A stretch of DNA of 64,000 nucleotides from Bryobacteraceae bacterium (GTDB lineage Bacteria; Acidobacteriota; Terriglobia; Bryobacterales; Bryobacteraceae), in assembly GCA_030041495.1 (NCBI GenBank), contig JASHNT010000091.1, positions 124,001 to 188,000 on the forward strand. Reading direction: 5' to 3'. The notes beneath the pieces are model-generated. The model ran no database searches. It saw only the letters and a program-made list of their open reading frames with translations, and was not told the DNA's origin. The position numbers and the translations under genes were made by a program. This document shows positions 4,887 to 25,421 of this stretch, piece by piece (within the stretch, counting starts at the first letter, position 1; each line of letters starts with the position of its first letter).

Positions 4887-5273
4887 TCAATCCGTGATGG
4901 CGTGAAGGGCGACGATCGCCAGAAAGCCGCCCGCGGCCAGAGTAGCCAGCGCGATTAACAGCGTGGCTAAGTGAGTGCGCATCGTGGCGAGGACGTGGCG
5001 CGCGGCTTGGCGCAACTCCGCCTCGGCGGTCCAGCTTTGCGCGAGCATGGCGCAACCGCCGGCCAACACAGCCAGAGGAAAAGCGATCAAGAACAGCCAT
5101 AGACCAACGTGAGTCCTGGCCGCGTACCAATCGACGATGTGCGCCGCGGTGCGCGCCGGTTCGTATTCGAGCGGCTGCCAGTTGCGCACGAACAAGGAGC
5201 TCATGAACAGGGCCGCCGGGAAGATCAGCAGCAACTCCGCGGCGGCGATGGCGCGCTTTAGGGCGGGACTCAT
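4887..5273 (-). CDS. Small membrane protein of unknown function
   Basis: 128 residues from the ATG at 5273; the frame extends further upstream but that part is basic and unlike a protein. Three hydrophobic segments are visible: around AELLLIFPAALFMSSLFV, GLWLFLIAFPLAVLAGG and TLLIALATLAAGGFLAIV, with a charged loop rich in Ala/Arg/Glu between the second and third. No family is recognised. It lies downstream of, and on the same strand as, the AraC-type regulator (stop at 5317), 43 bases away, so the two could form one transcript. Confidence 0.6.
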   Translation of the reverse strand: MSPALKRAIAAAELLLIFPAALFMSSLFVRNWQPLEYEPARTAAHIVDWYAARTHVGLWLFLIAFPLAVLAGGCAMLAQSWTAEAELRQAARHVLATMRTHLATLLIALATLAAGGFLAIVALHAITD

Positions 5274-5316
5274 AATGTACTTTATACAACAAAGGTTCTC
5301 CGGGCGCAAGCTTTTT

Positions 5317-6156
5317 CTATTGCCATGCGGCTTTGACCGGGACCCAGATTTCCACACCGCCCAATCCGGTGCGTGGGTCGAAATTCTCTCCGTAGACCTC
5401 CAGCCATGGCGCGTCCAAGGCGTGCAATCCGGCTAGGCCGTGCTCCCAAATCGCCTGGAACGTACCTCGGATCGCGGAGATGTGGTCGCGATGCTCGAAC
5501 ACAGCGTAGGTCTGCGCGGGAATGCGCAGGCGCGTGAATTCGGGATGTGAGGGGAACGCGCTGACGGCCACGCCGCAGAGGTAGTCAAACTTGCCGGTGT
5601 CTTCGGAATTGTAGATCACGCCGTAAGTCGTGTGGCCGATCTGGCCTTCGATGTTTCCGATGTAGGGACCGAAGCGGTTCCACAGAGGCGGGATTCCGGG
5701 ATCGCCGGCGCGCTCACAATGCATCGACAACCCGAAAATCGAAAGTGTATCTGCCGCCACCAGACGCGGCGGAGTAAGTGGAGTAGTATTGGCGAGATTC
5801 ATTCGTAATGGCTCCTGTGTGGGGATGGATAGATTTTGTGAGCGCGCCTGCTCCGGCGTCACGCCGAACTGCTGGCGGAACGCCCGCGTGAACGCTTCGT
5901 GCGAGCCGTAGCCCGCATCCAGCGCCACGGCGAGTATATCGGAAGCGCCGTCGATCAACTGCTTGGCCGCCTCGCCCAGCCGCCGCGCGCGGATATAGGC
6001 GGCGAGCGGCACTCCCATGGTGGAGGCAAAGGCCCGCGAGAGATGAAACTTGGAGACTCCAGCCCCTTGGGCGATCGTTTCCAGCGACAACTCTTCGCTC
6101 AAATGCGTTTCGATGTACCACAGAGCTTTCGACGTTACGCTCACGTTGACCAGCAT
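5317..6156 (-). CDS. AraC family regulator with GyrI-like effector domain
   Basis: 279-residue transcription factor. Residues ~5-105 hold the two helix-turn-helix motifs of the AraC/XylS DNA-binding domain (SLETIAQGAGVSKFHLSRAF and the second helix near GYGSHEAFTRAFRQQFG). Residues ~130-279 form a GyrI/SOUL-like ligand-binding domain, recognisable by GIPPLWNRF and the C-terminal LEVYGENFD and VEIWVPV strands. This is the Rob/SbmC-type architecture, usually sensing small hydrophobic or cationic compounds. The ATG at 6156 is chosen because the upstream extension in frame is Arg-rich and overlaps the divergent gene. A good promoter lies just upstream. Confidence 0.88.
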   Translation of the reverse strand: MLVNVSVTSKALWYIETHLSEELSLETIAQGAGVSKFHLSRAFASTMGVPLAAYIRARRLGEAAKQLIDGASDILAVALDAGYGSHEAFTRAFRQQFGVTPEQARSQNLSIPTQEPLRMNLANTTPLTPPRLVAADTLSIFGLSMHCERAGDPGIPPLWNRFGPYIGNIEGQIGHTTYGVIYNSEDTGKFDYLCGVAVSAFPSHPEFTRLRIPAQTYAVFEHRDHISAIRGTFQAIWEHGLAGLHALDAPWLEVYGENFDPRTGLGGVEIWVPVKAAWQ

Positions 6157-6181
6157 AAACGGCTGCACGCGCCGGAGCTTG

Positions 6182-6210
6182 ATAGTTCTTGCGGTTTCTG
6201 GAACAGTCAA
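6182..6210 (-). promoter_or_regulatory. Sigma-70-type promoter for the AraC/GyrI gene
   Basis: On the minus strand TTGACT (6210-6205) and AACTAT (6187-6182) are separated by exactly 17 bases, and the ATG is 25 bases further on. The site occupies nearly the whole 59-base gap shared with the divergent beta-helix lipoprotein gene, so regulator binding here could affect both genes. Confidence 0.45.
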
Positions 6211-6215
6211 ATGTG

Positions 6216-7592
6216 ATGCGTGTGCGGACAATCGCCGTGCTGACCGCCGTGGGCGCGCTCGCGGCCTGCAATCGTTCGCCCGAGGCGCGGTTACGGCACG
6301 TGCTCGCGACGCAGACCAGCGGGAGGATTCAATTGCCGGCAGGAGTTGTCGAAATTTCCGCCGAGCTGACGCTTGCGCCCGGAGCGCACGATCTGGAAAT
6401 CGCCGGCGCGCCCCGCGGCTCAACGCTTAAGGCGAGCGCAGCGTTTCACGGCCGGGCTATCCTGGTGCTCGATCAAGCCAAGAACATCCGCTTGCACGAA
6501 TTTTCGATCGAGGGTAATCGGGAGACTTCGCCGAAGAGGCTGGAAATGGCGCCTCCGGAAAATTACTTCCGCATGTGGTATGCGGATAACGGGATACTGG
6601 CCGATCGCGTCGACGGGCTCACGGTCAGCGGCGTCCATCTGGCTCACGTCGCCAACTTTCCGATCCTGGTCAGCCGGTCCATGGACATCGCGATTTCGAA
6701 AGTTGTCGTCGCCGATTCGGGCTCGCTCAATGCGATGGGCCGCAACAATTTGAGCGGGGGAATTCTGATCGAGGAAGGCTCGGCTCATTTCGAGGTCCGC
6801 AATTCGACGTTTCAAAATATCGCGGGCAACGCGTTGTGGACACACTCGCTGCGGATTACTCCGCGCCTTTCCGACGGCGTTTTCGCCGGCAATCACATCG
6901 ATACTGTTGCCCGGGACGGGATTCAACTGGGCGCGGCGACTCGAGTCCGGGTCGAGAACAATACCATCGCCAACGTGGGGTTTCCGGTGAAACAGGTCGA
7001 CGTGGAGCATGCGGGGACGCCAGCCGGGATCGATACCGCCGGCAACGTCGATGACTCGGTTTACCAAGGGAATAAGCTCTCCGAAATCAATGGAAAATGT
7101 TTCGATCTCGACGGCTTTCACGACGGCGCTGTTAGTGGCAACACTTGCATCAATCGCAAGCCGCCGGAATTTTACGCGTTCGGGCACTTCGGCGTGGTGA
7201 TGAACAACACCGATCCGGGCATGCGCCCGCAAAACATCGAAGTCACGGGCAACACATTCGACGGGATGAAATTCGGCGGGCTGTTTCTGATCGGCGGCGG
7301 CCACAGGATCGCCGGCAACAAGTTCCTGAACCTGGACACGGCGGGCTGCAACGAAAGCGCGGCCAAATTCGGTTGCATCTACAAAAAGGACGAGCCGGAG
7401 ATGCTCGAATCCGGCATCTACCTGGGCCGCGCCGCGGAGCATTCCGCCGACACTCGGGGCAACGTTATCGAAGACAATCTGATCACCGGCCACGGGATGA
7501 CGCTGCACTGCATCCAGGCTGCGCCAGGCGTGGAACTGAAGTCCCAGACAATTAAGGGAAACACCTGTGCTGACGTAGACCGGTCGCGCTAA
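6216..7592 (+). CDS. Right-handed parallel beta-helix lipoprotein
   Basis: 458-residue exported protein. The ATG at 6216 gives a lipoprotein signal (MRVRTIAVLTAVGALAAC) with lipobox LAAC at residues 17-20, so it is probably lipid-anchored. The body shows repeated short strands with N/G-rich turns (SGNTC, VTGNTFDG, IAGNKFLN, IEDNLITG), typical of NosD/pectate-lyase-like beta-helices that bind or cleave polysaccharide. Several cysteine pairs are present near residues 300-400. No catalytic motif is certain, so a lyase, epimerase or binding role cannot be separated. It is followed after 16 bases by the Wzt-like pseudo-ATPase gene, which suggests a carbohydrate link. Confidence 0.75.
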   Translation: MRVRTIAVLTAVGALAACNRSPEARLRHVLATQTSGRIQLPAGVVEISAELTLAPGAHDLEIAGAPRGSTLKASAAFHGRAILVLDQAKNIRLHEFSIEGNRETSPKRLEMAPPENYFRMWYADNGILADRVDGLTVSGVHLAHVANFPILVSRSMDIAISKVVVADSGSLNAMGRNNLSGGILIEEGSAHFEVRNSTFQNIAGNALWTHSLRITPRLSDGVFAGNHIDTVARDGIQLGAATRVRVENNTIANVGFPVKQVDVEHAGTPAGIDTAGNVDDSVYQGNKLSEINGKCFDLDGFHDGAVSGNTCINRKPPEFYAFGHFGVVMNNTDPGMRPQNIEVTGNTFDGMKFGGLFLIGGGHRIAGNKFLNLDTAGCNESAAKFGCIYKKDEPEMLESGIYLGRAAEHSADTRGNVIEDNLITGHGMTLHCIQAAPGVELKSQTIKGNTCADVDRSR

Positions 7593-7608
7593 AGTAGACT
7601 ATTCTCTA

Positions 7609-8568
7609 GTGTCCATCGAGTTCCGTAACGTAACGCTGGGTGCTCTCAAAAGCTTTCGCGCGGTGGCACCTTCGGGTGTCATCATCGGCGTGATTGGCGA
7701 AAAAGGTTCTGGTGTCTCCGAGCTGTTGAAGCTCGCCGGAGGCGCGGTGCAGCCGGAACAAGGCGAGATCACCGCCGGACCGCAGCGGCGCCTGGTGAGC
7801 CTCGGCGAACCTTTGAATCTCGCGCCGGGTGACGTGATCGTGCTGGATCAGGCGCTGGCCACGCAAGACGCGGTGGTGCGCGCGCGCACGTTGACCGGCC
7901 TCGACCGCTTGCGCCGCGCTGGCTCGACCATCTTTTTGGGCTCGAATGAAACCGGGCTGCTGGAGCGGCTGTGCGACGAAATCTGGTGGATCGATTCGGG
8001 CGAACTCGCGGCCAAGGGCGATCCCAAGGAAACGCTGCTGAAGTACGGGCGCCATGTGGCGGAGCGCATCCGGGCCTGGGGCGAGACCATTCCGCCGCGA
8101 CTGGCTCCGTCTTTTAGGAGGGGGGACGGGCGATCCGAGATCATTTCCATCGAGACTTTGGGCGCGGACGGTAAGCCGACCATCGTGTGGAAGAGCGGGG
8201 AAATGGTCAGTGCGCGCGCGGAGGTGCGCTTTCACGAGGCGGTAGACAATCCGGTGCTGGGGCTGATGATCCGCACGCAGATCGGCTTCGAAGTTTATGG
8301 CACCAATACGGAACTGGAGCGAGTCAAGATCGGGCCGCGCAAGGCGGGCGAAACGGCGGTGGTCACGTTCTCCTTCCTGTGCGACTTGTGCCCCAACGCT
8401 TATACGTTGACTCTCGCTTCGCACGATCCCGACGGCACCGCGCATGACTGGCTGGATGACGCCATCGCCGTCACCGTAACGGATGAGCGCTATACGGCGG
8501 GGGTAGCGAATCTGCACGCCAAGGTAACGGTGGAAATCCCTCAGCCGACGGGCGAACTCAGCGCATGA
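7609..8568 (+). CDS. Wzt-like protein: degenerate ABC ATPase fused to a carbohydrate-binding-type C-terminal domain
   Basis: 319 residues from a GTG start. Residues 1-150 align to ABC exporter nucleotide-binding domains of the Wzt/TagH class, but every catalytic position is changed: Walker A reads GEKGSGVS (V36 where lysine is required), Walker B reads VIVLDQ (Q81 instead of Glu), and the switch histidine is N113 in GSNETG. Only about 45 residues separate the Walker motifs, so the helical subdomain with the LSGGQ signature is missing. Residues ~195-315 resemble the Wzt C-terminal sugar-recognition domain (GLMIRTQIGFEVYGTNTE). ATP hydrolysis is therefore unlikely. A scaffold or substrate-recognition role is inferred. 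No permease gene is adjacent. Confidence 0.7.
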   Translation: MSIEFRNVTLGALKSFRAVAPSGVIIGVIGEKGSGVSELLKLAGGAVQPEQGEITAGPQRRLVSLGEPLNLAPGDVIVLDQALATQDAVVRARTLTGLDRLRRAGSTIFLGSNETGLLERLCDEIWWIDSGELAAKGDPKETLLKYGRHVAERIRAWGETIPPRLAPSFRRGDGRSEIISIETLGADGKPTIVWKSGEMVSARAEVRFHEAVDNPVLGLMIRTQIGFEVYGTNTELERVKIGPRKAGETAVVTFSFLCDLCPNAYTLTLASHDPDGTAHDWLDDAIAVTVTDERYTAGVANLHAKVTVEIPQPTGELSA

Positions 8569-8889
8569 CCGCCGATGTCACTTCCGGCAAGGGTGAAGAG
8601 GCGAAGCAGAAGCGCCACCGCAAGGCTGCCGCGCGTTGCTTCGGCGTGTTTGCCCGAGGCGATCCGCGGCGCTCGGGAAACGTGAAAGAAGTGGTCAGGG
8701 AAATTGCGCGGCGCAAGCATGCCCTTGCTGGTGTTGGGGTCGTTCCCACCGATTTCAGGATCTACCGCATCGGCGGCCGCGCCCCGGCTTTACCGGTTGC
8801 TTATACTGACGATGGCTCCCGCGCCTCCGGACGAGCCTCCATCCACCGGCTTCGGTGAGCTTGAATGACGTCGCGGACCTTCAAGGACG
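8569..8889. other. Intergenic region without a convincing gene
   Basis: A 97-codon open frame starts at an ATG overlapping the previous stop (8565) and runs to 8858. Its product is Arg/Ala-rich with no recognisable motif, and the minus strand is also open for 63 codons here, so GC bias explains both. A TATACT hexamer at 8802-8807 precedes an ATG at 8811 that reads only 18 codons. I see no hairpin with a T-tract. Treated as non-coding. Confidence 0.3.
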
Positions 8890-10236
8890 CTACTTGCCTT
8901 CGAGTAAGAAGGTCGGCGCCAAGCCGGTCAGCGTGGAGAACGACGACGGTCCGGCTACATCCAGCCAGCTCGAGCAGCCCTGCACCGACCCCAAATACGC
9001 ATGCGGCTGCACGTCCACCAGCATCTCCTTCATCATCAGGCTGCCGTATTGCAGCATGGGGAAGACGGCGCGAGCGGGAGGCTCGGCGGCTTCCTGCACC
9101 ACGTAAGGGCTGCGCATGGCTTGGCGCAGAGCTTTCTCCCAGTTGAGATCCGTCACGTCCGCGCCGCGGACCGGATGAACTTCGGTGGAATTGTCGTTGG
9201 GACGCAGCACCAGCTTGGCGCGATGCTTCATCACGAATTCGGGCAGGTCCACGGTGTGGCCTTTGTGGGTGGTTTTGGCGGCCTGCACCAGTCGCGTCCA
9301 CGGCACGAAGTCTTTGATCGCCTTGCGCTCCGCCGCCGGAAATTTCGCCGTGACGGTGTCATCGGTCAACAAATCGAACAGAGCCTGTTTGGAGGCAAGC
9401 TCCGTGCGAAAGCTGTTGATCATGCACACGGTGCGATCCTTGGTGGCGCGCACCAGCGGATGATTCAGATCGAAACGCACCAGGAATTCCTGAAGCTTGA
9501 CGTTGCGATACACCACGTCGATGGTAAATTCTCCGCGATGCAGCACATTGTTGCGATATTCGAGCTGATCGGGCGAAACTACTTCTGTTGGAAACCCTTC
9601 GCGCGTGAGGAAGTCCGCCAGCAGCAGGCTGTCCGAAGAAAACATCGGCTGGCGGAACTCGACTACCGCGATGTTGGGGCGCTTATTCTTGCCGCCGGAT
9701 TCCTTGTACGCCTTCAGGATCGCGCTCAATAATGGCTTGACGCCGGGCAGCTTCTTGAGCTTGAATTTCTTGCGCAGTTCTTTTACCGGCGCGGCATCGT
9801 AATACAAATCCGCCAGCGCTTCGCCATAAATCGCGCCAGGAGAAGCCACGCCGCTGTGCCCGCCGAAGCGGACGGTCCCGTCGTTCAGTTGAGTGTGCAA
9901 AGTTCCGGCCACGCTGAACGCGGAATAGCCGGGGTCGACGGCAGCCAGCATGCGCTCGGCCGGCAGCAGTTGCACGCGCGCCAGCAGCGCCGGATTCGCC
10001 AGCGCCATACGCTCCACGCGATCGATGGCCGAGAGCAGACTCTCCGCGGCCTTGACCATCGTCGCGTAGTCGCGGCTGGAGATCAGGTGAGGGCGCAGCA
10101 CCGGCGAGAGCGGACCGTCCTCCAGCTTGAGCGCCTTCTTACGCTCCTGAAGCGCCTGGGCCCATCCCAGGTCAATATACGGTTCGCTTTCGATGAGTTT
10201 GTGATAACGGGCGATCGCTTCGCCGACCAGAGTCAT
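8890..10236 (-). CDS. ATP-grasp-like protein (glutathionylspermidine-synthase/circularly permuted type), function unknown
   Basis: 448-residue cytoplasmic protein. The C-terminal third has features of ATP-grasp ligases: KLVLRPNDNS near residue 355, like the lysine plus glycine/serine nucleotide loop, then YVVQE (about residue 390), like the adenine-binding hinge, and a late metal-binding-like segment. The N-terminal half contains VDPGYSAFSVAGTLHTQLND and NIAVVEFRQPMF, resembling the pre-ATP-grasp fold of glutathionylspermidine-synthase-like proteins. These assign a fold, not a substrate; amide or peptide ligation is the likely chemistry. It is a single gene, convergent with the pseudo-ABC gene and followed upstream by typA on the same strand. 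Confidence 0.55.
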   Translation of the reverse strand: MTLVGEAIARYHKLIESEPYIDLGWAQALQERKKALKLEDGPLSPVLRPHLISSRDYATMVKAAESLLSAIDRVERMALANPALLARVQLLPAERMLAAVDPGYSAFSVAGTLHTQLNDGTVRFGGHSGVASPGAIYGEALADLYYDAAPVKELRKKFKLKKLPGVKPLLSAILKAYKESGGKNKRPNIAVVEFRQPMFSSDSLLLADFLTREGFPTEVVSPDQLEYRNNVLHRGEFTIDVVYRNVKLQEFLVRFDLNHPLVRATKDRTVCMINSFRTELASKQALFDLLTDDTVTAKFPAAERKAIKDFVPWTRLVQAAKTTHKGHTVDLPEFVMKHRAKLVLRPNDNSTEVHPVRGADVTDLNWEKALRQAMRSPYVVQEAAEPPARAVFPMLQYGSLMMKEMLVDVQPHAYLGSVQGCSSWLDVAGPSSFSTLTGLAPTFLLEGK

Positions 10237-14282: not shown

Positions 14283-15029
14283 TCAAGTGGCGCTTGCCGT
14301 GCCGCCGTGGCCGGATTGGTAGGCTTTCAGAACCTGGTCGACCGGGCCGCTGGTGACGACCCTTCCGCGTTCCAGCCACATCGCATGCTGGCACAACATT
14401 TCCATCAATTTTGGCGAATGCGACGCCAGAAGAATGGTTTTCCCCTCGCTTTGGAAGCGCCGCATGCGCTCCAGGCATTTGGCCTGGAAGTCGTTATCAC
14501 CCACGCCGATCATTTCATCGATCACCAGAACATCCGGGTTCATGTGCACAGCGACAGAAAACGCCAGCCTCATCTGCATTCCGCTCGAATAAGTGCGTAA
14601 AGGCTCGCGAATAAAATCGCGCACTCCGGAAAACTCGATAATGTCTTCGAAGCGCTCTTTGGTTTGCCGCCGCGTCAGACCGATCATGGCGGCGTTGACA
14701 CGCACGTTCTCTTCGCCGGTCAAGTCAGGGTGAAAGCCCGAGCCGAGCTCAAGCAGCGCGCCCACGCGCCCGTGGACCTCGATTCGCCCGGAATCGGGTT
14801 GCGAAAGCCCGCACACCATATTGAGCAGCGTGCTCTTGCCTGCTCCATTCGGTCCGATCAAGCCGAGCCCGTCGCCGCGCGGCAGTTGGAAGGAGACGTC
14901 CTTGAGCACTTCCAAACGGTGCCCGGGTGCGGAACGGAATAGTTCCGCGATGCGCTCTCGCAGCAGGCGCGGGCCGGTGTGATGCGCGAAGGATTTCGAA
15001 ACCCGGTCAAATACCAACGCCGCTGTCAT
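14283..15029 (-). CDS. ABC exporter ATPase, polysaccharide type (Wzt/TagH-like), no C-terminal sugar-binding domain
   Basis: 248-residue nucleotide-binding subunit that drives export of a lipid-linked polysaccharide. All motifs are intact: Walker A GPNGAGKST, signature YSSGM (the Wzt/KpsT form of LSGGQ), Walker B VLVIDE and switch histidine in LASHSP. The long insertion before Walker A with RERIAELF is typical of this subfamily. The protein stops right after the ATPase fold; the Wzt C-terminal carbohydrate-recognition domain is absent. Its ATG at 15029 overlaps the permease stop (ATGA), so the two are translationally coupled. Confidence 0.9.
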   Translation of the reverse strand: MTAALVFDRVSKSFAHHTGPRLLRERIAELFRSAPGHRLEVLKDVSFQLPRGDGLGLIGPNGAGKSTLLNMVCGLSQPDSGRIEVHGRVGALLELGSGFHPDLTGEENVRVNAAMIGLTRRQTKERFEDIIEFSGVRDFIREPLRTYSSGMQMRLAFSVAVHMNPDVLVIDEMIGVGDNDFQAKCLERMRRFQSEGKTILLASHSPKLMEMLCQHAMWLERGRVVTSGPVDQVLKAYQSGHGGTASAT

Positions 15030-15808
15030 AGATGTTCGTAAAAGCGGTCCTTCAGCCGGCGGAAGAGCCACGTCCCGGCCACGGCAGTGAAGGTCGCGGC
15101 AATGGTCATGTTGCGCAGCAGCGACGGCGCCGGAGCCTGCCGTTCGATCATGATGTTGCGCATCGCCATCACCAAGGCGGCCACGGGATTGAACTGGTAC
15201 ACATCGCGAAAACGGTCCGGAATGTAGCTGAAGGGGTAAAAGATCGGCACCAGCCAGAACAACACCAGGTTGAAGGATTCCACCACATAGCGGGTGTCGC
15301 GAATGAAAACGTTGACCGCGCTAGCGCCCAGCGCCAGCCCGCACACAAACACGATGAATAGCAGCCAGACCAGCGGCAGCCACAGCCAGGAAACGGCCGG
15401 AGGCAGGCGGTAGACGAGAGCGAAACCTACCAGCAATCCAAACTGGATCAGCAGATGGACGCAGTTGGAAAGCACGGACGCCACCGGCACTACTTCTCGC
15501 GGCACGGCTACGCGTTTGACCAGGGGCGCGCTATCCAGGATGGAGGTGGTTCCAGCCAGCAGCGCCCCGCTGAAGAAATTGAATGGAATCAAGCCGCACA
15601 GAATGAACAGCGGATAGGCCGCGATGCTCTTGTTGGCGAAGACGTTCGAAAAGATGAACGTCATCACCCCCATCAGCACCAGCGGATTGATCAGGCTCCA
15701 CATCACGCCCAGGCTCATGTTGCGGTAGCGGATGCGGAAATCCTTGAGAATCAGATTTTCGAGAAGGAAAAGCAGGTCGCCTCCCCACTTACGCGGCGGA
15801 GTGGTCAT
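15026..15808 (-). CDS. ABC-2 type polysaccharide export permease (Wzm-like)
   Basis: 260-residue inner-membrane subunit with six hydrophobic segments. Family features are the amphipathic start LLFLLENLILKDFRIRYRN before the first membrane helix, WSLINPLVLMGVMTFIFSNVF, and the C-terminal region NPVAALVMAMRNI followed by a last helix and the cytoplasmic end RRLKDRFYEHL. It pairs with the Wzt-like ATPase directly downstream. The start at 15808 is preferred because the upstream extension in frame is polar and unconserved; a TATACT hexamer (minus strand, 15832-15827) lies about 20 bases upstream and could be the -10 box. Glycan substrate unknown: no glycosyltransferase cluster is next to it. Confidence 0.88.
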   Translation of the reverse strand: MTTPPRKWGGDLLFLLENLILKDFRIRYRNMSLGVMWSLINPLVLMGVMTFIFSNVFANKSIAAYPLFILCGLIPFNFFSGALLAGTTSILDSAPLVKRVAVPREVVPVASVLSNCVHLLIQFGLLVGFALVYRLPPAVSWLWLPLVWLLFIVFVCGLALGASAVNVFIRDTRYVVESFNLVLFWLVPIFYPFSYIPDRFRDVYQFNPVAALVMAMRNIMIERQAPAPSLLRNMTIAATFTAVAGTWLFRRLKDRFYEHL

Positions 15809-15890
15809 TGTGAAGAATAAAAACAAGTATACAATGCGGGCTCTTGAGGCCTGGAGCGTCGTATACGGCCGCAGCATGGCATCATAGTTC

Positions 15891-17087
15891 TTGCGCTCCT
15901 CTCCGCTGCTTCCCATCTTTCTGATCGTGGCCGTGGACGTCCTCGGCCTCACGATCATGATTCCGCTGCTGCCCTTCTACGCCGAAAAACTGGGCGCGAG
16001 CCCGTTTGAGGTCGGCTGGCTGATCGGCGCTTACGCGGTTTGCCAGCTCATCTCCGGTCCGTTGCTGGGGCGCATGTCGGATCACATGGGACGCAAGCCG
16101 CTGTTGATCGTGAGCCAGCTCGGCACGTTCACCGGTTTCATCATTACCGCATTCGCGCCGAATCTCGCGATCCTGTTTCTGGCGCGAGCCATTGATGGAT
16201 CGACGGCCGGAAATCTATCGCTGGCGCAGGCTTACATCTCCGACGTCACCAAACCGGAGGAGCGCGCGAAGTCATTCGGCATTATCGGCATCGCGTTCGG
16301 ACTCGGGTTCTTGATCGGACCCGCGATATCCGGATTCCTGGCGCGATACGATTATCGCGATCCCATTTTCGCCGCGGCTCTCCTCTCGTTTTTGAGCATC
16401 ATGGCCACGACAGTGCTGCTCCCGGCGACCAAGCCCAGCGCGGACAAGCCCACGGGTCCGGGAGGCACGCGTATTTCGCTGGTGGAATGGGGCGCTTATG
16501 CGGCGTACTTCAAGCGCGCCAGCCTGGCTCCGCGCCTGTTCGAGTTCTGCGCGTTCGCGTTCAGCTTCGCGTGGTTCGTCTCGGGGTTGCCTCTGTTTGC
16601 CGAGCGCCGGCTCACCTGGCACGGAATGCCGTTTGGACCGGTGCAACTCGGCTACATTTGGGCCTACGCCGGATTTCTGGGCATTTTCCTACAAGGCCCG
16701 GCTCTGGGCAGGCTGGTGAAGCGTTTCGGGGAAAAAGCTCTGCTGCGAACCGGGTTCCTAGGTTACGCGCTGGGGTACCTGCTGCTCGCCGTTTGCCACA
16801 ACTTGTCTACATTGATCTTGGCGAGCACGGTGGCGGCGATTGGCGGACTGGTGCGCCCGACTCTGACCAGCATGATCACGCAAGCCACCCCGCGCGAGGA
16901 GCAGGGCGTTGTGCTGGGCCTGACGCAATCCTTGACTTCGGTTTCACAGATCACTGCGCCGCCGATTGGAACCTGGCTGATTGGACAAGGTCTGTTGACC
17001 AGTTGGGGCGCGGCCGCAGCGGCTGTGGCTGCGGTTGGCTTGATGCTCGCGTACAGGTCCTTTGCGCAAGCGCAAGAGCCCCGCTAA
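15891..17087 (+). CDS. MFS transporter, DHA1/TetA-like
   Basis: 398-residue inner-membrane exporter with about 12 hydrophobic segments. Motif D1-like VDVLGLTIMIPLLP lies in helix 1, and motif A GRMSDHMGRKPLL between helices 2 and 3, as in the tetracycline/multidrug drug:H+ antiporter families; motif C-like GLGFLIGPAISGFLA lies in helix 5. The likely start is TTG at 15891, because an in-frame stop (TAG at 15885) precedes it. It is divergent from the Wzm gene; two GTATAC palindromes (15827-15832 and 15861-15866) lie in the shared 82-base gap. Substrate unknown. Confidence 0.85.
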   Translation: MRSSPLLPIFLIVAVDVLGLTIMIPLLPFYAEKLGASPFEVGWLIGAYAVCQLISGPLLGRMSDHMGRKPLLIVSQLGTFTGFIITAFAPNLAILFLARAIDGSTAGNLSLAQAYISDVTKPEERAKSFGIIGIAFGLGFLIGPAISGFLARYDYRDPIFAAALLSFLSIMATTVLLPATKPSADKPTGPGGTRISLVEWGAYAAYFKRASLAPRLFEFCAFAFSFAWFVSGLPLFAERRLTWHGMPFGPVQLGYIWAYAGFLGIFLQGPALGRLVKRFGEKALLRTGFLGYALGYLLLAVCHNLSTLILASTVAAIGGLVRPTLTSMITQATPREEQGVVLGLTQSLTSVSQITAPPIGTWLIGQGLLTSWGAAAAAVAAVGLMLAYRSFAQAQEPR

Positions 17088-20482: not shown

Positions 20483-21397
20483 ATGGATCGCAGATTTCTC
20501 ACGGTCTTGGGCGTGAGCTTGGTGTTTGCGCTGGTGGTCTCCAGCGTGTTTTATCAAATGACCTCACGCGGACGGTCCACGGCCACGCAGCAAACCACCG
20601 ATATGCGCGACATCGTGGTCACCACCCGTCCGCTCTCGGTCGGAGCGCTGATCAAGCCCGCAGACGTCAAGCTGTCCAAGATTCCGGCGCAAGCCTTCCC
20701 GAAGGGCGCCTATTCGAAGGTAGAGGAAGTGCTGGACCGCGGGGTAGTCTCCAACATGCTGATGGAGGAGCCGATTCTGGAAGGCCGCTTGGCGGCCAAA
20801 GGCAGTGGTCTGGGCCTAGCCACGGAGATCCCCGTCGGCATGCGCGCCGTCACGGTGCGCGTCAACGACGTGGCCAACGTAGCCGGCTTCGTGCTGCCGA
20901 ACATGCATGTGGACGTGCTGGTGACCGGCCGGCCTCCCGGGGGAGAGGGCGACATGACCACCACCTGCTTGCAGAACATGCTGGTGCTCTCCTCGGGCAC
21001 GACGCTGCAGCCGGATGCGCGAGGACAGGCGATCAATTCCCCGAACGTGACGCTGTTGGCCACTCCCGAACAGGCCGAAACGCTGACTCTGGCCAACTCC
21101 GACGGGCACATCCAACTGATCTTGCGCAATTCGACCGATGCCGGAGTGGAACAAACTCCAGGCCGCTATCTCGAAGAGTTGTATTCGGCCCATCGCCACG
21201 CCCCGGAAAAGGAGATCACCGCTGCGGTGGCTCCCAAGCCGCGGCCCAAGCCGGTGGAGCCGCCGGTCCAGGCTGCCGTGCCGCCTCCGCCGCCTCCGGT
21301 GGCCGTGGCTCCCGTGGCTCCGCCGCCGGACCAGGTGGTCATCATTCGCGGCAACCAGAGGACCGTGGAGACGCTTCCGGCGCGCGCCTCTAACTAA
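20483..21397 (+). CDS. cpaB: Flp pilus assembly protein CpaB (RcpC)
   Basis: 304 residues with an N-terminal membrane anchor (LTVLGVSLVFALVVSSVFY) and a periplasmic SAF/beta-clip domain (VTTRPLSVGALIKPADVKLSKIP is too typical to miss in the first 100 residues). The C-terminal ~70 residues are proline-rich (VQAAVPPPPPPVAVAPVAPP), an extension not always present in CpaB. CpaB is thought to stabilise the secretin. AGAGGAGAACAAGT precedes the ATG. Between cpaA and cpaC in the operon, as expected. Confidence 0.92.
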   Translation: MDRRFLTVLGVSLVFALVVSSVFYQMTSRGRSTATQQTTDMRDIVVTTRPLSVGALIKPADVKLSKIPAQAFPKGAYSKVEEVLDRGVVSNMLMEEPILEGRLAAKGSGLGLATEIPVGMRAVTVRVNDVANVAGFVLPNMHVDVLVTGRPPGGEGDMTTTCLQNMLVLSSGTTLQPDARGQAINSPNVTLLATPEQAETLTLANSDGHIQLILRNSTDAGVEQTPGRYLEELYSAHRHAPEKEITAAVAPKPRPKPVEPPVQAAVPPPPPPVAVAPVAPPPDQVVIIRGNQRTVETLPARASN

Positions 21398-21423
21398 GGG
21401 AAGGGAAACAAAGGAACAGCACA

Positions 21424-22833
21424 ATGATCCGGACTAGCATTCTCAAAAAACATCGAGGCGCGCTGTTCTGCGCCGCCCTGGCCGTCGCGGGAGCGGTTCG
21501 CCTGCCGGCTCAAAACGCCGAGGACCTCCGCCTCACCTCCGGCAAGAGCGTGATCATGGACTATCCTTCCGACGTCAACACCGTGAACACCAGCAATCCG
21601 GACGTGGTGGACGTGACGTTGCGGACCACGCGCGAGATTCTGCTGACGCCCAAGACCATCGGGGCCGCCACGCTGATCGTGTGGAATCGCGCCAACCAGC
21701 GCACCATGTACAACATCAACGTGGAGATGAACCTGGAGTCCCTGCGGCAGCTCTACAAGGATTCTTTCCCCAACGAAAACATCCAGGTGCATAGTTCGCG
21801 CGACACCATCACGCTGACCGGCACCGTATCCAGCAAGGAAGTGGCGGATAAAGCCGGCGCGGTGGCGGCCGGGTTCGCCAAGACTGTGCTCAACAACCTG
21901 ACTCTGCCCGCTCCGACGATGGAAAAGCAGATCCTGCTGCGCGTCAAATTCGCCGAGTTGGACCGCTCTAAGGAGGTTCAATTTGGAGTAAATCTGCTGG
22001 CGGCCCCAGGCAACATCCCCATTGGAGCGAGTACCGGGCAATTCGCGAACGGATCCTTTAGCGGATCCCTTACCGTTCCGCCTTCATCCGCCGGCTCGAC
22101 CACGACCTGTACCGCCGGGGGTTGCCAGACCACGACACAGGGCAACAGCGGAACCTTCACCATCACGCAAGCCCTGAACCTGTTCGCCTTGGATCCCAAG
22201 CTGAACCTGGGCGCGTTCGTCAAGGCTCTGCAGCAAGAGAACATTCTGCAAATCCTGGCGGAACCGAACCTGGTCACCTCCAACAACAAGGAAGCCAATT
22301 TCCTGGTAGGCGGCGAATTTCCGGTTCCGGTGGTGCAGGGCGGCGCGACTTCCGGCGCCGTCACCGTGCAGTACAAACAGTGGGGCATCCGCCTGCTGTT
22401 TACTCCCAGCATCACCCCGGTGGGCACCATTTCGATGCACCTGCGGCAGGAAGTCTCCGCGCTGGACTATACCAATGCGGCGGTGCTGAACGGATTCACC
22501 ATTCCCGGCCTCACCTCGCGCACCGCCGAATCGACGGTGGAGCTGGGCGAAGGGCAGAGTTTCGTGGTGGCTGGCCTGGTCAACAACCAGGAGCAGTATG
22601 TTCTGTCCAAGGTGCCGTTCATCAGCAGCATCCCGATTTTGGGGAACCTGTTCAAGTCCAAGGACGACAAGGTCACGCGCACGGACCTGATCATGATCGT
22701 GACGCCCGAAATCACGATGCCGCTGGGGCCGAACGATCCCAAACCGGATATTTACATGCCCAAGGATTTCTTAAAGCGGCTGGATCCCAAAGACATTCCC
22801 CCGACACCGCCGGTCAGCAGAGCGAAGAAGTGA
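21424..22833 (+). CDS. cpaC: Outer-membrane secretin CpaC/RcpA
   Basis: 469-residue secretin forming the outer-membrane channel for Flp pili. After a signal peptide (to about residue 29) comes the pilus-assembly N domain (SGKSVIMDYPSDVNTVNTSNPDVVDV), a BON-like fold (residues ~105-160) and the secretin core (LVTSNNKEANFLVGGEFP, then VPFISSIPILGNLFKS), all canonical. Unusual: residues ~217-247 form a Ser/Thr/Gly-rich insert holding two cysteines (C229, C234), likely an exposed loop. The stop is followed directly by the cpaE ATG. Confidence 0.94.
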   Translation: MIRTSILKKHRGALFCAALAVAGAVRLPAQNAEDLRLTSGKSVIMDYPSDVNTVNTSNPDVVDVTLRTTREILLTPKTIGAATLIVWNRANQRTMYNINVEMNLESLRQLYKDSFPNENIQVHSSRDTITLTGTVSSKEVADKAGAVAAGFAKTVLNNLTLPAPTMEKQILLRVKFAELDRSKEVQFGVNLLAAPGNIPIGASTGQFANGSFSGSLTVPPSSAGSTTTCTAGGCQTTTQGNSGTFTITQALNLFALDPKLNLGAFVKALQQENILQILAEPNLVTSNNKEANFLVGGEFPVPVVQGGATSGAVTVQYKQWGIRLLFTPSITPVGTISMHLRQEVSALDYTNAAVLNGFTIPGLTSRTAESTVELGEGQSFVVAGLVNNQEQYVLSKVPFISSIPILGNLFKSKDDKVTRTDLIMIVTPEITMPLGPNDPKPDIYMPKDFLKRLDPKDIPPTPPVSRAKK

Positions 22834-24036
22834 ATGAGTTCCTGGTCTCAGAATGAAGCGGAGATCACGGCCCTCCTGATCGCTCCGCACCGTGAGCTCG
22901 CGCAGCAGTTCCTGGCGACTCTTCCGCAGACGCGCGCCTTTCAAATTTTGGCGGACCTGAAAAGTTACCCGCCGCACCAGACCCTGGACATTCGCGCGCG
23001 GCAGCTCAAGCCGAACGTCATTCTTCTGGATCTGGTGACCGACCTGGCGGCGGCTGTGGAATTGATCAAGTGGGTTGCGGCGCTCAATCCGCCGGTTCAT
23101 GTGGTCGGGCTGCATACGCACAACGATTCCACGGCGATTCTGCAATCTCTCCGCGCCGGCGCCTCCGAGTTCCTCTACGCTCCGTTTGAGTTGTCACAGC
23201 AACGCGAGGCGATTGCCCGCCTGCGCCGGATGATCGTGCCGGAGACCCCGGCCCCTTCCGAAGAGGGCCACGCGGTCGCCTTCACCAGCCCGAAGCCCGG
23301 CTCCGGCGCCTCCACCATCGCGACCCAGACGGCGTTCGCGCTGGAGCGGCTCACTGGCAAGCGCGTGCTGCTGGCCGACGGCGACCTGACCGGAGGGACC
23401 ATCGGTTTTTATCTTAAGCTCAGCCACAACTACTCGCTGGTGGACGCGCTGCAGCACGCCGAGCACCTCGATCCGGCGCTGTGGAGCTCGCTGACAGTCA
23501 ACTACGGAGGCGTGGACATTCTGCCTGCGCCGGCTGCGCCCTACGCCGACCCGATCGATCCGGCGCGCATCCGCATGCTGGTGGACCAGGCCCGCCATTT
23601 GTACGACTGGGTGGTGGTGGATCTTCCGACGGTATTCAGCCGCACCAGCTTGATGGCCGTTTCGGAATGCGAGCGCGCGTTCCTGATTTCAACCTCCGAG
23701 CTGCCCAGCCTGCATTTGACGCGCAAGGCGATCAACATGCTGGACCAACTCGGCTTCCCGAAGGACCGCTTTTACGTGCTGGTGAACCGGGTAAGCCGCC
23801 GCGACCGCATGGGGCTGGAGCACATTGAGGCGCTGTTCGGATGCAAAGTGCACGCCCGCTTGCCCAACGATTATTTCTCTTTGCACCGCGTGGTCACTCT
23901 GGGCCAGCCTCTGGGCGGAGAAGGGGAACTGGGCAAGGCTATTGAAAGCGTCGCCACGCAGCTCGCCGGCAGCGTGACGGAGAAGAAGAAAGGCGGCGGA
24001 GCGCGGGACCTGAAGCCCGCGCTGCAACAGGCGTGA
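22834..24036 (+). CDS. cpaE: Tad localisation ATPase-like protein CpaE/TadZ
   Basis: 400 residues. Residues ~10-125 form a receiver-like domain without the phospho-site consensus; residues ~145-370 are a MinD/ParA-type ATPase domain. The deviant Walker A reads SPKPGSGASTIA: the signature lysine (K154) remains but the P-loop lysine before S/T is A159, so ATP binding is doubtful, as in some other TadZ proteins. DGDLTGGTIGFYL and VVVDLP carry the remaining motifs. TadZ directs the Tad machine to its site in the cell. It abuts cpaC with no gap and precedes cpaF by 17 bases. Confidence 0.9.
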   Translation: MSSWSQNEAEITALLIAPHRELAQQFLATLPQTRAFQILADLKSYPPHQTLDIRARQLKPNVILLDLVTDLAAAVELIKWVAALNPPVHVVGLHTHNDSTAILQSLRAGASEFLYAPFELSQQREAIARLRRMIVPETPAPSEEGHAVAFTSPKPGSGASTIATQTAFALERLTGKRVLLADGDLTGGTIGFYLKLSHNYSLVDALQHAEHLDPALWSSLTVNYGGVDILPAPAAPYADPIDPARIRMLVDQARHLYDWVVVDLPTVFSRTSLMAVSECERAFLISTSELPSLHLTRKAINMLDQLGFPKDRFYVLVNRVSRRDRMGLEHIEALFGCKVHARLPNDYFSLHRVVTLGQPLGGEGELGKAIESVATQLAGSVTEKKKGGGARDLKPALQQA

Positions 24037-24053
24037 GGTCCGCATAGGAATAT

Positions 24054-25421
24054 ATGTTTTCGTCCATCGATCACGGCAACAAGAGCAACCAGCAGGTCTC
24101 CTGGGAACAGAGGCTGTTGAAGAATTCCACTCGCCAGAAGGCCTCGCTGAAGCCTGAGTATCAGGAGCTGAAGTTCACCCTGCACCGCAAGTTGGTGGAC
24201 AAGATCAACCTGGAGGCGCTGGCCTCCATCGACAATCAGCGCGTCCGGAGCGAGGTGCGGCAGGCGGTGATCTCGCTGATCGACGCCGAGCCGACGCTGC
24301 TGAGTTCGCTCGAAAAGCAGCAGATTTCCGATGAAGTCCTAGACGAGGTTTTCGGTCTGGGTCCGCTGGAGCCGCTGCTTCAGGACCCGACCATCTCCGA
24401 CATCCTGGTGAACACCTACAAGCAGGTCTACGTGGAGCGGCGCGGCTTGCTGGAGCTGACCAACGTCAACTTCCGCGACGATTCGCACCTGCTGCGCATC
24501 ATCGACAAGATCGTCAGCCAGGTGGGCCGCCGCATCGACGAATCGACTCCTATGGTGGACGCGCGTTTGAGCGACGGCTCGCGCGTCAACGCCATCATTC
24601 CGCCGCTGGCGGTGGACGGGCCGCTGCTCTCCATCCGCCGGTTTTCGACCGACAAACTGATGCCGCCCGATTTGATCGACCGCCGGGCGATGACGCCGGG
24701 CATGATGGAGCTGCTGGAGGCCGCCGTGAAGGCGCGCATGAACATCATCATCGCGGGTGGCACCGGCTCCGGTAAAACGACGTTGCTCAATGCGCTGTCC
24801 GTGTTCATCAGCTCCAAGGAGCGCATTGTGACCATTGAAGACGCGGCGGAATTGCAGCTCAAGCAGCCGCACGTCGCGCGTCTGGAAACCCGTCCGCCGA
24901 ACCTGGAAGGCACCGGCGCGGTGCGCCAGCGCGAGCTTCTGGTCAACAGTCTGCGTATGCGTCCCGACCGCATCGTGGTGGGCGAAGTCCGCGGCGAGGA
25001 GGCCCTGGACATGTTGCAGGCGATGAACACCGGTCACGATGGCTCGCTCACCACCATCCACGCCAACTCCCCGCGCGACGGGGTGAGCCGTCTGGAAGTC
25101 ATGGTGTCGCTGGCCAATTCCAACATGCAACTGACGTCCATCCGCCAGCAGATTGCCAGTGCGGTCCACTTGCTGGTGCAGGCCGCGCGCATGAGCGACG
25201 GCTCGCGCCGTGTGGTCAGCCTCACGGAGGTGACCGGCATGGAAGGCGACGTGGTGACTCTGCAGGATCTATTCGTTTTCGAAAAGCGCGGCCTGGATCC
25301 GGACGGGAAAGTGGTGGGGCGCTTCGCGGCCACCGGAATCCGGCCCAAGTTCTACGAAAAACTCTTGAGCGCCGGCATTCGCCTGCGCCCCGACTTGTTC
25401 GACGAGGTTGTGGAGGTCTAA
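24054..25421 (+). CDS. cpaF: Tad secretion ATPase CpaF/TadA
   Basis: 455-residue cytoplasmic hexameric ATPase that powers Flp pilus extension/retraction. All PulE/VirB11 motifs are present: Walker [10 protein letters not shown] (K241), Asp box [14 protein letters not shown], Walker [15 protein letters not shown], and the His box [11 protein letters not shown]. The N-terminal domain has [24 protein letters not shown], the standard start of CpaF. Length and motif spacing are normal. The stop is followed at once by the tadB ATG. Confidence 0.97.

Follow-up and report, generated by a model that had tools for sequence, protein, structure and literature searches.

The 64,000-nucleotide stretch of Bryobacteraceae DNA analysed here (the window) encodes a reduced Wzt protein, mini-Wzt, which combines an apparently dead ATPase half with an intact Wzt_C carbohydrate-binding domain (CBD). 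Judged by alignment and phylogeny, mini-Wzt is one side branch of the Wzt ATPases, in which the helical subdomain is gone and the catalytic lysine and glutamate are missing from nearly every member. It is real, conserved and biologically coherent, and is built on a known domain; its substrate and partner are predictions.

The degenerate ATPase half

The mini-Wzt gene (7609–8568, forward strand; 319 amino acids) was defined from its open reading frame, Pfam matches, predicted structure and alignment. The frame and the residues at the ATPase landmarks were as the first-pass annotation had described them. The window protein has valine in place of the Walker A lysine (V36), glutamine in place of the Walker B glutamate (Asp80-Gln81) and asparagine in place of the switch (H-loop) histidine (N113). 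These landmarks lie in the NBD remnant (residues 1–161; 7609–8091, forward strand), delimited from the model and the alignment, together with a DExWW motif (residues 123–127) and a hinge helix (residues 139–160). In Pfam, ABC_tran matched this half just as a 39-residue fragment (residues 21–59; 20.2 bits, below the cut-off of 25), while Wzt_C (PF14524) matched residues 170–301 with an E-value of 4.1e-31 (score 108.3 bits, cut-off 30.4), as expected from the C-terminal pattern noted at first sight.

The ATPase half lacks about 62 residues comprising the helical subdomain and the ABC signature, in addition to the Walker A lysine and the Walker B glutamate. We aligned 52 mini-Wzt members, and the spacing between the positions of G45 and A88 was 43 residues in 32 of them and 0–56 in the other 20, against 105 in all 25 full-length Wzt proteins, in agreement with the earlier reading of a missing subdomain. 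Among the 26 closest sequences (window protein included), the Walker A lysine position is occupied by Val (16), Leu (4), Ile (3), Gln (2) and Lys (1), and the Walker B glutamate position by Gln (21) and His (5), so that the lysine is gone in 25 of 26 and the glutamate in all 26. The H-loop position shows His in 23, Asn in two (the window protein and its nearest relative) and Gln in one. Of the three substitutions singled out by the first-pass annotation, the first two are thus shared by the relatives, whereas N113 is a lineage change, since His is present in 23 of the 26 close sequences. Its statement that all catalytic residues are lost was too strong, because the Walker B aspartate and the D-loop aspartate are each kept in 25 of 26. 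By this comparison, the conserved losses of mini-Wzt are the Walker A lysine, the Walker B glutamate and the helical subdomain.

Exceptions in the wider alignment are few. Four of the 52 members (L028, L066, L131 and L132) retain the Walker A lysine, but each has His or Arg at the Walker B glutamate position and no helical subdomain; an eroded member (L127) has a glutamate in the Walker B column and no Walker A lysine. The lysine and the glutamate occur together in none of the 52, and orthologues with intact Walker motifs, which would have indicated recent decay, were not found among them. The DExWW motif is present in 47 of the 52 and in none of the 25 full-length proteins. In some genera most of the P-loop lobe has been lost (e.g. 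L114, 248 amino acids). Nevertheless, erosion leaves the part from residue 81 onward largely untouched, with a block occupancy over the 52 members of 0.96–1.0 there and of 0.75–0.76 for residues 41–60. The idea that the ATPase half was reduced to a scaffold therefore holds in so far as this half is degenerate throughout a conserved family, but the N-terminal lobe does not qualify as an essential scaffold, because some genera have shed much of it.

The AlphaFold2 model of mini-Wzt (30 aligned rows) has a mean pLDDT of 88.4 and a pTM of 0.58, and the low pTM agrees with two predicted domains of uncertain relative placement. The comparison with Wzt and TagH structures that had been proposed at the outset gave clear matches. 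The best Foldseek match was the Wzt of A. aeolicus (7k2t, E-value 3.7e-23), and the isolated A. aeolicus CBD with 3-O-methyl-mannose (8dky) matched over 134 columns (E-value 3.9e-11, rmsd 1.9). Residues 1–161 were superposed by VIA-align on the 241-residue NBD of TagH over 160 residues (Z 22.3, rmsd 2.0), and are predicted to be the NBD core minus the helical lobe. Mini-Wzt thus shares the NBD fold with TagH and RfbE-type Wzt proteins, which lack a CBD. Unlike mini-Wzt, TagH and RfbE-type proteins are ATPases without Wzt_C.

Distribution, ancestry and selection

Orthologues of the same build are encoded in 20 of the 22 other genomes of the genus, with 64–87% identity, and are absent from G011 and G022. 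By hand count, the reduced form is present in 32 of 61 genomes from the genus, family and order (window genome included); G028, whose gene is split between two contig ends, was counted as a carrier. A scan of named genomes, which overlaps this sample, yielded 19 loci (L010–L028; 48–87% identity), mostly titled Bryobacterales, Bryobacteraceae, Terriglobia or Acidobacteria. One of them (L012), a clear family member with 76% identity, lies in a record titled Bordetella parapertussis, a title that looks wrong for this MAG. In a set of 160 genomes of the order, 98 were classified by hand as carrying the reduced form. Match coverage and the length of the open frame decided the status in this set; an A1 match was present in 114 genomes, 16 of which were set aside as having full-length Wzt only.

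A maximum-likelihood tree was built from residues 106–308 of the 52 mini-Wzt members together with 15 class A and 10 class B full-length Wzt proteins (77 Wzt-type proteins). All 52 members form one clade (support 99/92), and a branch separates them from all the other proteins in 98% of 200 bootstrap trees. When the tree is rooted on class B, the clade is placed beside class A, which is itself weakly resolved (62/51). By both sequence and tree, the nearest full-length relatives are the class A proteins of the same order (e.g. G000 C76:55710–56924, beside LptD), with about 35–44% identity over residues ~66–309. Unlike mini-Wzt, class A Wzt has an intact P-loop (15 of 15) and an SSGM signature (13 of 15). 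The residue comparison with full-length Wzt left out four class A loci that were partial or contained Ns (L029, L035, L039 and L043).

Across 21 sequences of the genus, dN/dS had a median of 0.16 in the NBD remnant (196 of 210 pairs finite) and of 0.13 in the CBD (202 of 210). The absolute values are rough, because synonymous sites are close to saturation (median pS about 0.6). By these ratios, both halves of mini-Wzt are under purifying selection. Together with the single conserved clade, they bear out the early suggestion that the open frame is maintained by selection, and recent decay is ruled out by the orthologue survey and dN/dS. A decaying pseudogene whose frame stays open by chance would fit the progressive loss of NBD segments across genera; however, its probability is negligible in view of the retention across the order, the open frame, the dN/dS ratios and the invariant pocket residues.

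The cap pocket of the carbohydrate-binding domain

The Wzt_C domain of mini-Wzt (residues 170–301; 8116–8511, forward strand) was delimited by Pfam, and its cap pocket by residue mapping and conservation. In A. aeolicus Wzt, 3-O-methyl-mannose is contacted by Asn313, Thr346, Ala348, His350, Trp362 and Leu300, among others (PMC9445017). These residues correspond to N233, T268, A270, H272, W281 and M220 of mini-Wzt; for the pocket and the hinge, an offset was applied in the mapping, as the PDB index is one above the numbering of PMC9445017. The window protein therefore carries the methyl-cap-type pocket set of Wzt_C. The N/T/A/H/W pocket is whole in 49 of the 52 mini-Wzt members and in none of the 25 full-length paralogues, in which the position of the pocket histidine is Gln (15 of 15 class A) or Ala, Ser or Val (10 of 10 class B). 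The intact sugar-recognition domain of the first-pass annotation is thus supported at the residue level.

The hinge presents a different picture. In the hinge helix of A. aeolicus Wzt, Tyr233 touches the polymer (PMC9445017), and at the aligned position Tyr occurs in none of the 52 mini-Wzt members and none of the 25 full-length relatives. This position (147) is Gly in the window protein, and Arg (21), Gly (2), His (1), Ala (1) or Gln (1) in the 26 closest sequences. The neighbouring Tyr146 is Tyr in 47 of the 52 members, Trp in four and Phe in one. Compared with the Wzt of the WzmWzt O-antigen ABC transporters of A. aeolicus and E. coli O9a, mini-Wzt has in common the domain order, Wzt_C, the cap-pocket residues and the H-loop/hinge region, but is devoid of the Walker A lysine, the Walker B glutamate, the signature, the helical subdomain, an adjacent Wzm (in the window) and the hinge tyrosine.

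Homology and pocket conservation suggest that mini-Wzt recognizes a sugar. In the known pathway, attachment of a cap stops chain growth and the CBD of Wzt admits capped chains only (PMC9445017, PMC3482155, PMC11231755). We see about an even chance that mini-Wzt acts in the cytoplasm, without ATP, as a reader of methyl-capped glycan ends. A soluble, trans-acting cap reader is the most economical reading, because the cap pocket and the CBD-facing surface of the NBD are kept while the parts that bind and burn ATP are shed. Alternatively, mini-Wzt might have a regulatory or moonlighting role, in which the fold is a protein-protein scaffold (e.g. one that controls the methyltransferase or the beta-helix product described below) and the sugar pocket is structural. 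The family-specific DExWW motif does suggest a new interface; however, the pocket of mini-Wzt resembles that of A. aeolicus more than do the pockets of the full-length paralogues. This speaks for selection on the ligand and against mere upkeep of the fold, and we regard this role as improbable.

No description of a naturally ATPase-dead, stand-alone Wzt was found in the literature titles and abstracts searched, where subscription papers are thinly covered. In the papers cited here, the Wzt cap readers are parts of exporters, and action in trans is that of a separately expressed CBD. A naturally separated reader that is found across an order and has lost its ATPase stepwise would show a route from transporter subunit to lectin. 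Mini-Wzt would also be a pointer to a methylated glycan in soil bacteria that are widespread but little studied.

Linked genes and candidate exporters

Directly upstream of mini-Wzt, the window encodes a putative exported right-handed beta-helix lipoprotein with a polysaccharide-lyase-like fold (6189–7592, forward strand; assigned from Pfam Beta_helix, the model and linkage). The gene stops 16 bases ahead of the mini-Wzt start on the same strand, and this arrangement recurs in 12 of the 18 named loci L010–L027. In distant genera, the beta-helix gene is a divergent neighbour of mini-Wzt (L028, 4 of the 10 loci L074–L083 and 11 of 20 further loci). The two genes are on different contigs in G032, G036 and G049, and contig ends leave their linkage open or partly seen in G025 and G028. 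Across the 61 genomes, a beta-helix orthologue was detected in 22 at E < 1e-90, all of which carry mini-Wzt; G029 and G039, which have no mini-Wzt, showed weak matches that fail this rule. Among the 160 genomes of the order, 85 have both genes, 13 mini-Wzt only, 5 the beta-helix gene only (G081, G149, G161, G162 and G171) and 57 neither. In G081, a divergently placed mini-Wzt could lie off the contig, because the start of the beta-helix gene coincides with the end of the contig.

The predicted structure of the beta-helix protein (pLDDT 88.3) is a right-handed beta-helix. Its best PDB match by Foldseek was the polysaccharide lyase RbmB of V. cholerae (E-value 1.5e-9, 14% identity), which is also a weak sequence match, and further matches included a mannuronan epimerase, other beta-helix enzymes and tailspikes. 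The likeness to RbmB is one of predicted fold, and the beta-helix protein differs in its lipobox-like N-terminus. A lipobox-like stretch holds Cys27, which is almost invariant across 11 rows, and the lipoprotein call was made by eye.

The second recurrent gene encodes a SAM methyltransferase (METHYLTRANSFERASE; 431 amino acids at L076:4239–5534; Pfam Methyltransf_11). It adjoins the beta-helix gene on the same strand in 13 loci (L028, L075, L076, L078, L082, L108, L109, L114, L119, L120, L126, L127 and L129) and lies directly beside mini-Wzt in G025. Genes for mini-Wzt, the methyltransferase and the beta-helix protein are thus often neighbours. In the window genome the methyltransferase is on another contig (C41:5131–6450, 50%), and it is not linked with mini-Wzt in the genus of the window; its neighbours there (a SYLF lipoprotein, CbiX and an NAD/FAD oxidoreductase) do not look like polysaccharide genes.

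The methyltransferase follows the distribution of mini-Wzt closely. In the 61-genome sample, it was matched in 31 of the 32 mini-Wzt genomes and in none of the 29 others (C-terminal-half matches, E up to 1e-30). The sole mini-Wzt genome of this sample without a match, G002, is 65% complete, and a second query at 1e-20 gave no such match in G011, G022 or G029. In family f3, mini-Wzt and the methyltransferase are found in the same 3 of 18 genomes. Among the 160 genomes, 96 have both genes, 2 mini-Wzt only (G104 and G148), 6 the methyltransferase only (G064, G081, G097, G141, G149 and G162) and 56 neither, when the C-terminal half of the methyltransferase alone was the query (E up to 1e-8). With matches often listed for the N-terminal half only, the count was 95/3/6/56, the change being G061. 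Fisher values for co-occurrence in the 160 genomes were 1.4e-33 for the methyltransferase and 1.3e-24 for the beta-helix gene, and are descriptive, as relatedness is ignored. The G061 relative (L121, 3246–4160), of which just the C-terminal half is well recognized, still lies beside mini-Wzt, and given this locus the C-terminal half may have a function of its own. This half resembles TIGR03437 weakly (28.8 bits against a cut-off of 29.05).

WbdD-type terminating methyltransferases produce chain ends that are read by Wzt domains (PMC3482155). The partner gene of mini-Wzt is likewise a SAM methyltransferase and could provide a glycan cap for recognition by a Wzt-type protein, which makes the guess at the ligand directly testable. 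Unlike WbdD, however, the linked methyltransferase has no kinase domain recognized in a Pfam scan, and its C-terminal half is unassigned, the likeness to TIGR03437 being below the cut-off. The enzyme need not act on a sugar, because it is assigned at the level of the SAM-MT superfamily only and among its PDB sequence matches a D-glucose O-methyltransferase ranks below phosphoethanolamine and phospholipid methyltransferases. PADLOC matched it to mad2 over residues 60–173 only, which we read as a match to the general methyltransferase domain.

If mini-Wzt is a cap reader, the methyltransferase may cap the end of a lipid-linked polysaccharide with a methyl group, and mini-Wzt may bind this cap through Wzt_C, probably as a CBD dimer. 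It might then hand the completed chain in trans to a Wzm/Wzt exporter, or signal chain completion, and the beta-helix lipoprotein would act on the polymer outside the inner membrane. We tentatively propose, as a somewhat doubtful extension, a dispersed module for a methyl-capped polysaccharide in which the methyltransferase writes, the retired ATPase reads without ATP and an exported beta-helix lyase or epimerase edits. Such a module would represent a soluble, transporter-independent chain-end checkpoint in this acidobacterial order.

Exporters in these genomes bear on another reading, in which mini-Wzt is a trans-acting CBD subunit of one exporter, for example through CBD heterodimers. A separately expressed CBD restores transport by CBD-truncated WzmWzt, according to earlier work cited in the introduction of PMC9445017, so that CBDs can function in trans. 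The window holds a possible recipient 5.7 kb downstream of mini-Wzt, namely a short, CBD-less Wzt-like ATPase with a Wzm-like permease (14283–15958, reverse strand), which in NCBIfam resembles TagH and galactan export best, below the cut-offs. The permease gene of this pair (15026–15958), beside its own ATPase gene, is the nearest to mini-Wzt, and no Wzm permease adjoins mini-Wzt in the window. However, among the 61 genomes this permease (matches of at least 45%; a partial one in G031 included) follows mini-Wzt less well, with 23 genomes having both, 9 mini-Wzt only, 9 the permease only and 20 neither. The pair has no match of at least 45% in the near-complete mini-Wzt genomes G001, G003, G007, G014 and G034, and is therefore ruled out as an obligate partner.

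Class A Wzt is the other candidate, and its co-occurrence with mini-Wzt (26 of the 61 genomes with both, 6 mini-Wzt only, 5 class A only and 24 neither, at an identity of at least 56% and with a fragment in G016 included) is in favour of this reading. Against this, class A was not found at that identity in six mini-Wzt genomes, G002 (65% complete), G003, G006, G010, G021 and G032. Moreover, mini-Wzt has no helical subdomain, which is the permease-contacting part of ABC transporters. We therefore consider an exporter subunit, of either the CBD-less pair or class A Wzt, unlikely. The methyltransferase tracks the distribution of mini-Wzt better than either, and no exporter is consistently linked to mini-Wzt.

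Some further genes were observed near these loci. In L089 (G000 C76), class A Wzt directly follows LptD (5051–8928), with no Wzm within the 18 kb taken, and in its relatives L042, L084, L085 and L087 Wzm is adjacent. Upstream of the window, L144 encodes an ABC-2 permease of the class B Wzm type (14724–16301) with no ATPase gene recognized adjacent to it; this orphan was rejected as the class A partner, being closest to class B Wzm (47–52%). A 448-amino-acid protein (window 8890–10236, reverse strand), without a match in Pfam (E up to 0.001) or NCBIfam, is encoded next to mini-Wzt at many of the loci inspected; PADLOC gave no match for it, mini-Wzt or the beta-helix protein. The window also encodes Flp-pilus-type genes (20483–25421, forward strand), including RcpC/CpaB, a secretin, a ParA-like protein and a T2SSE ATPase.
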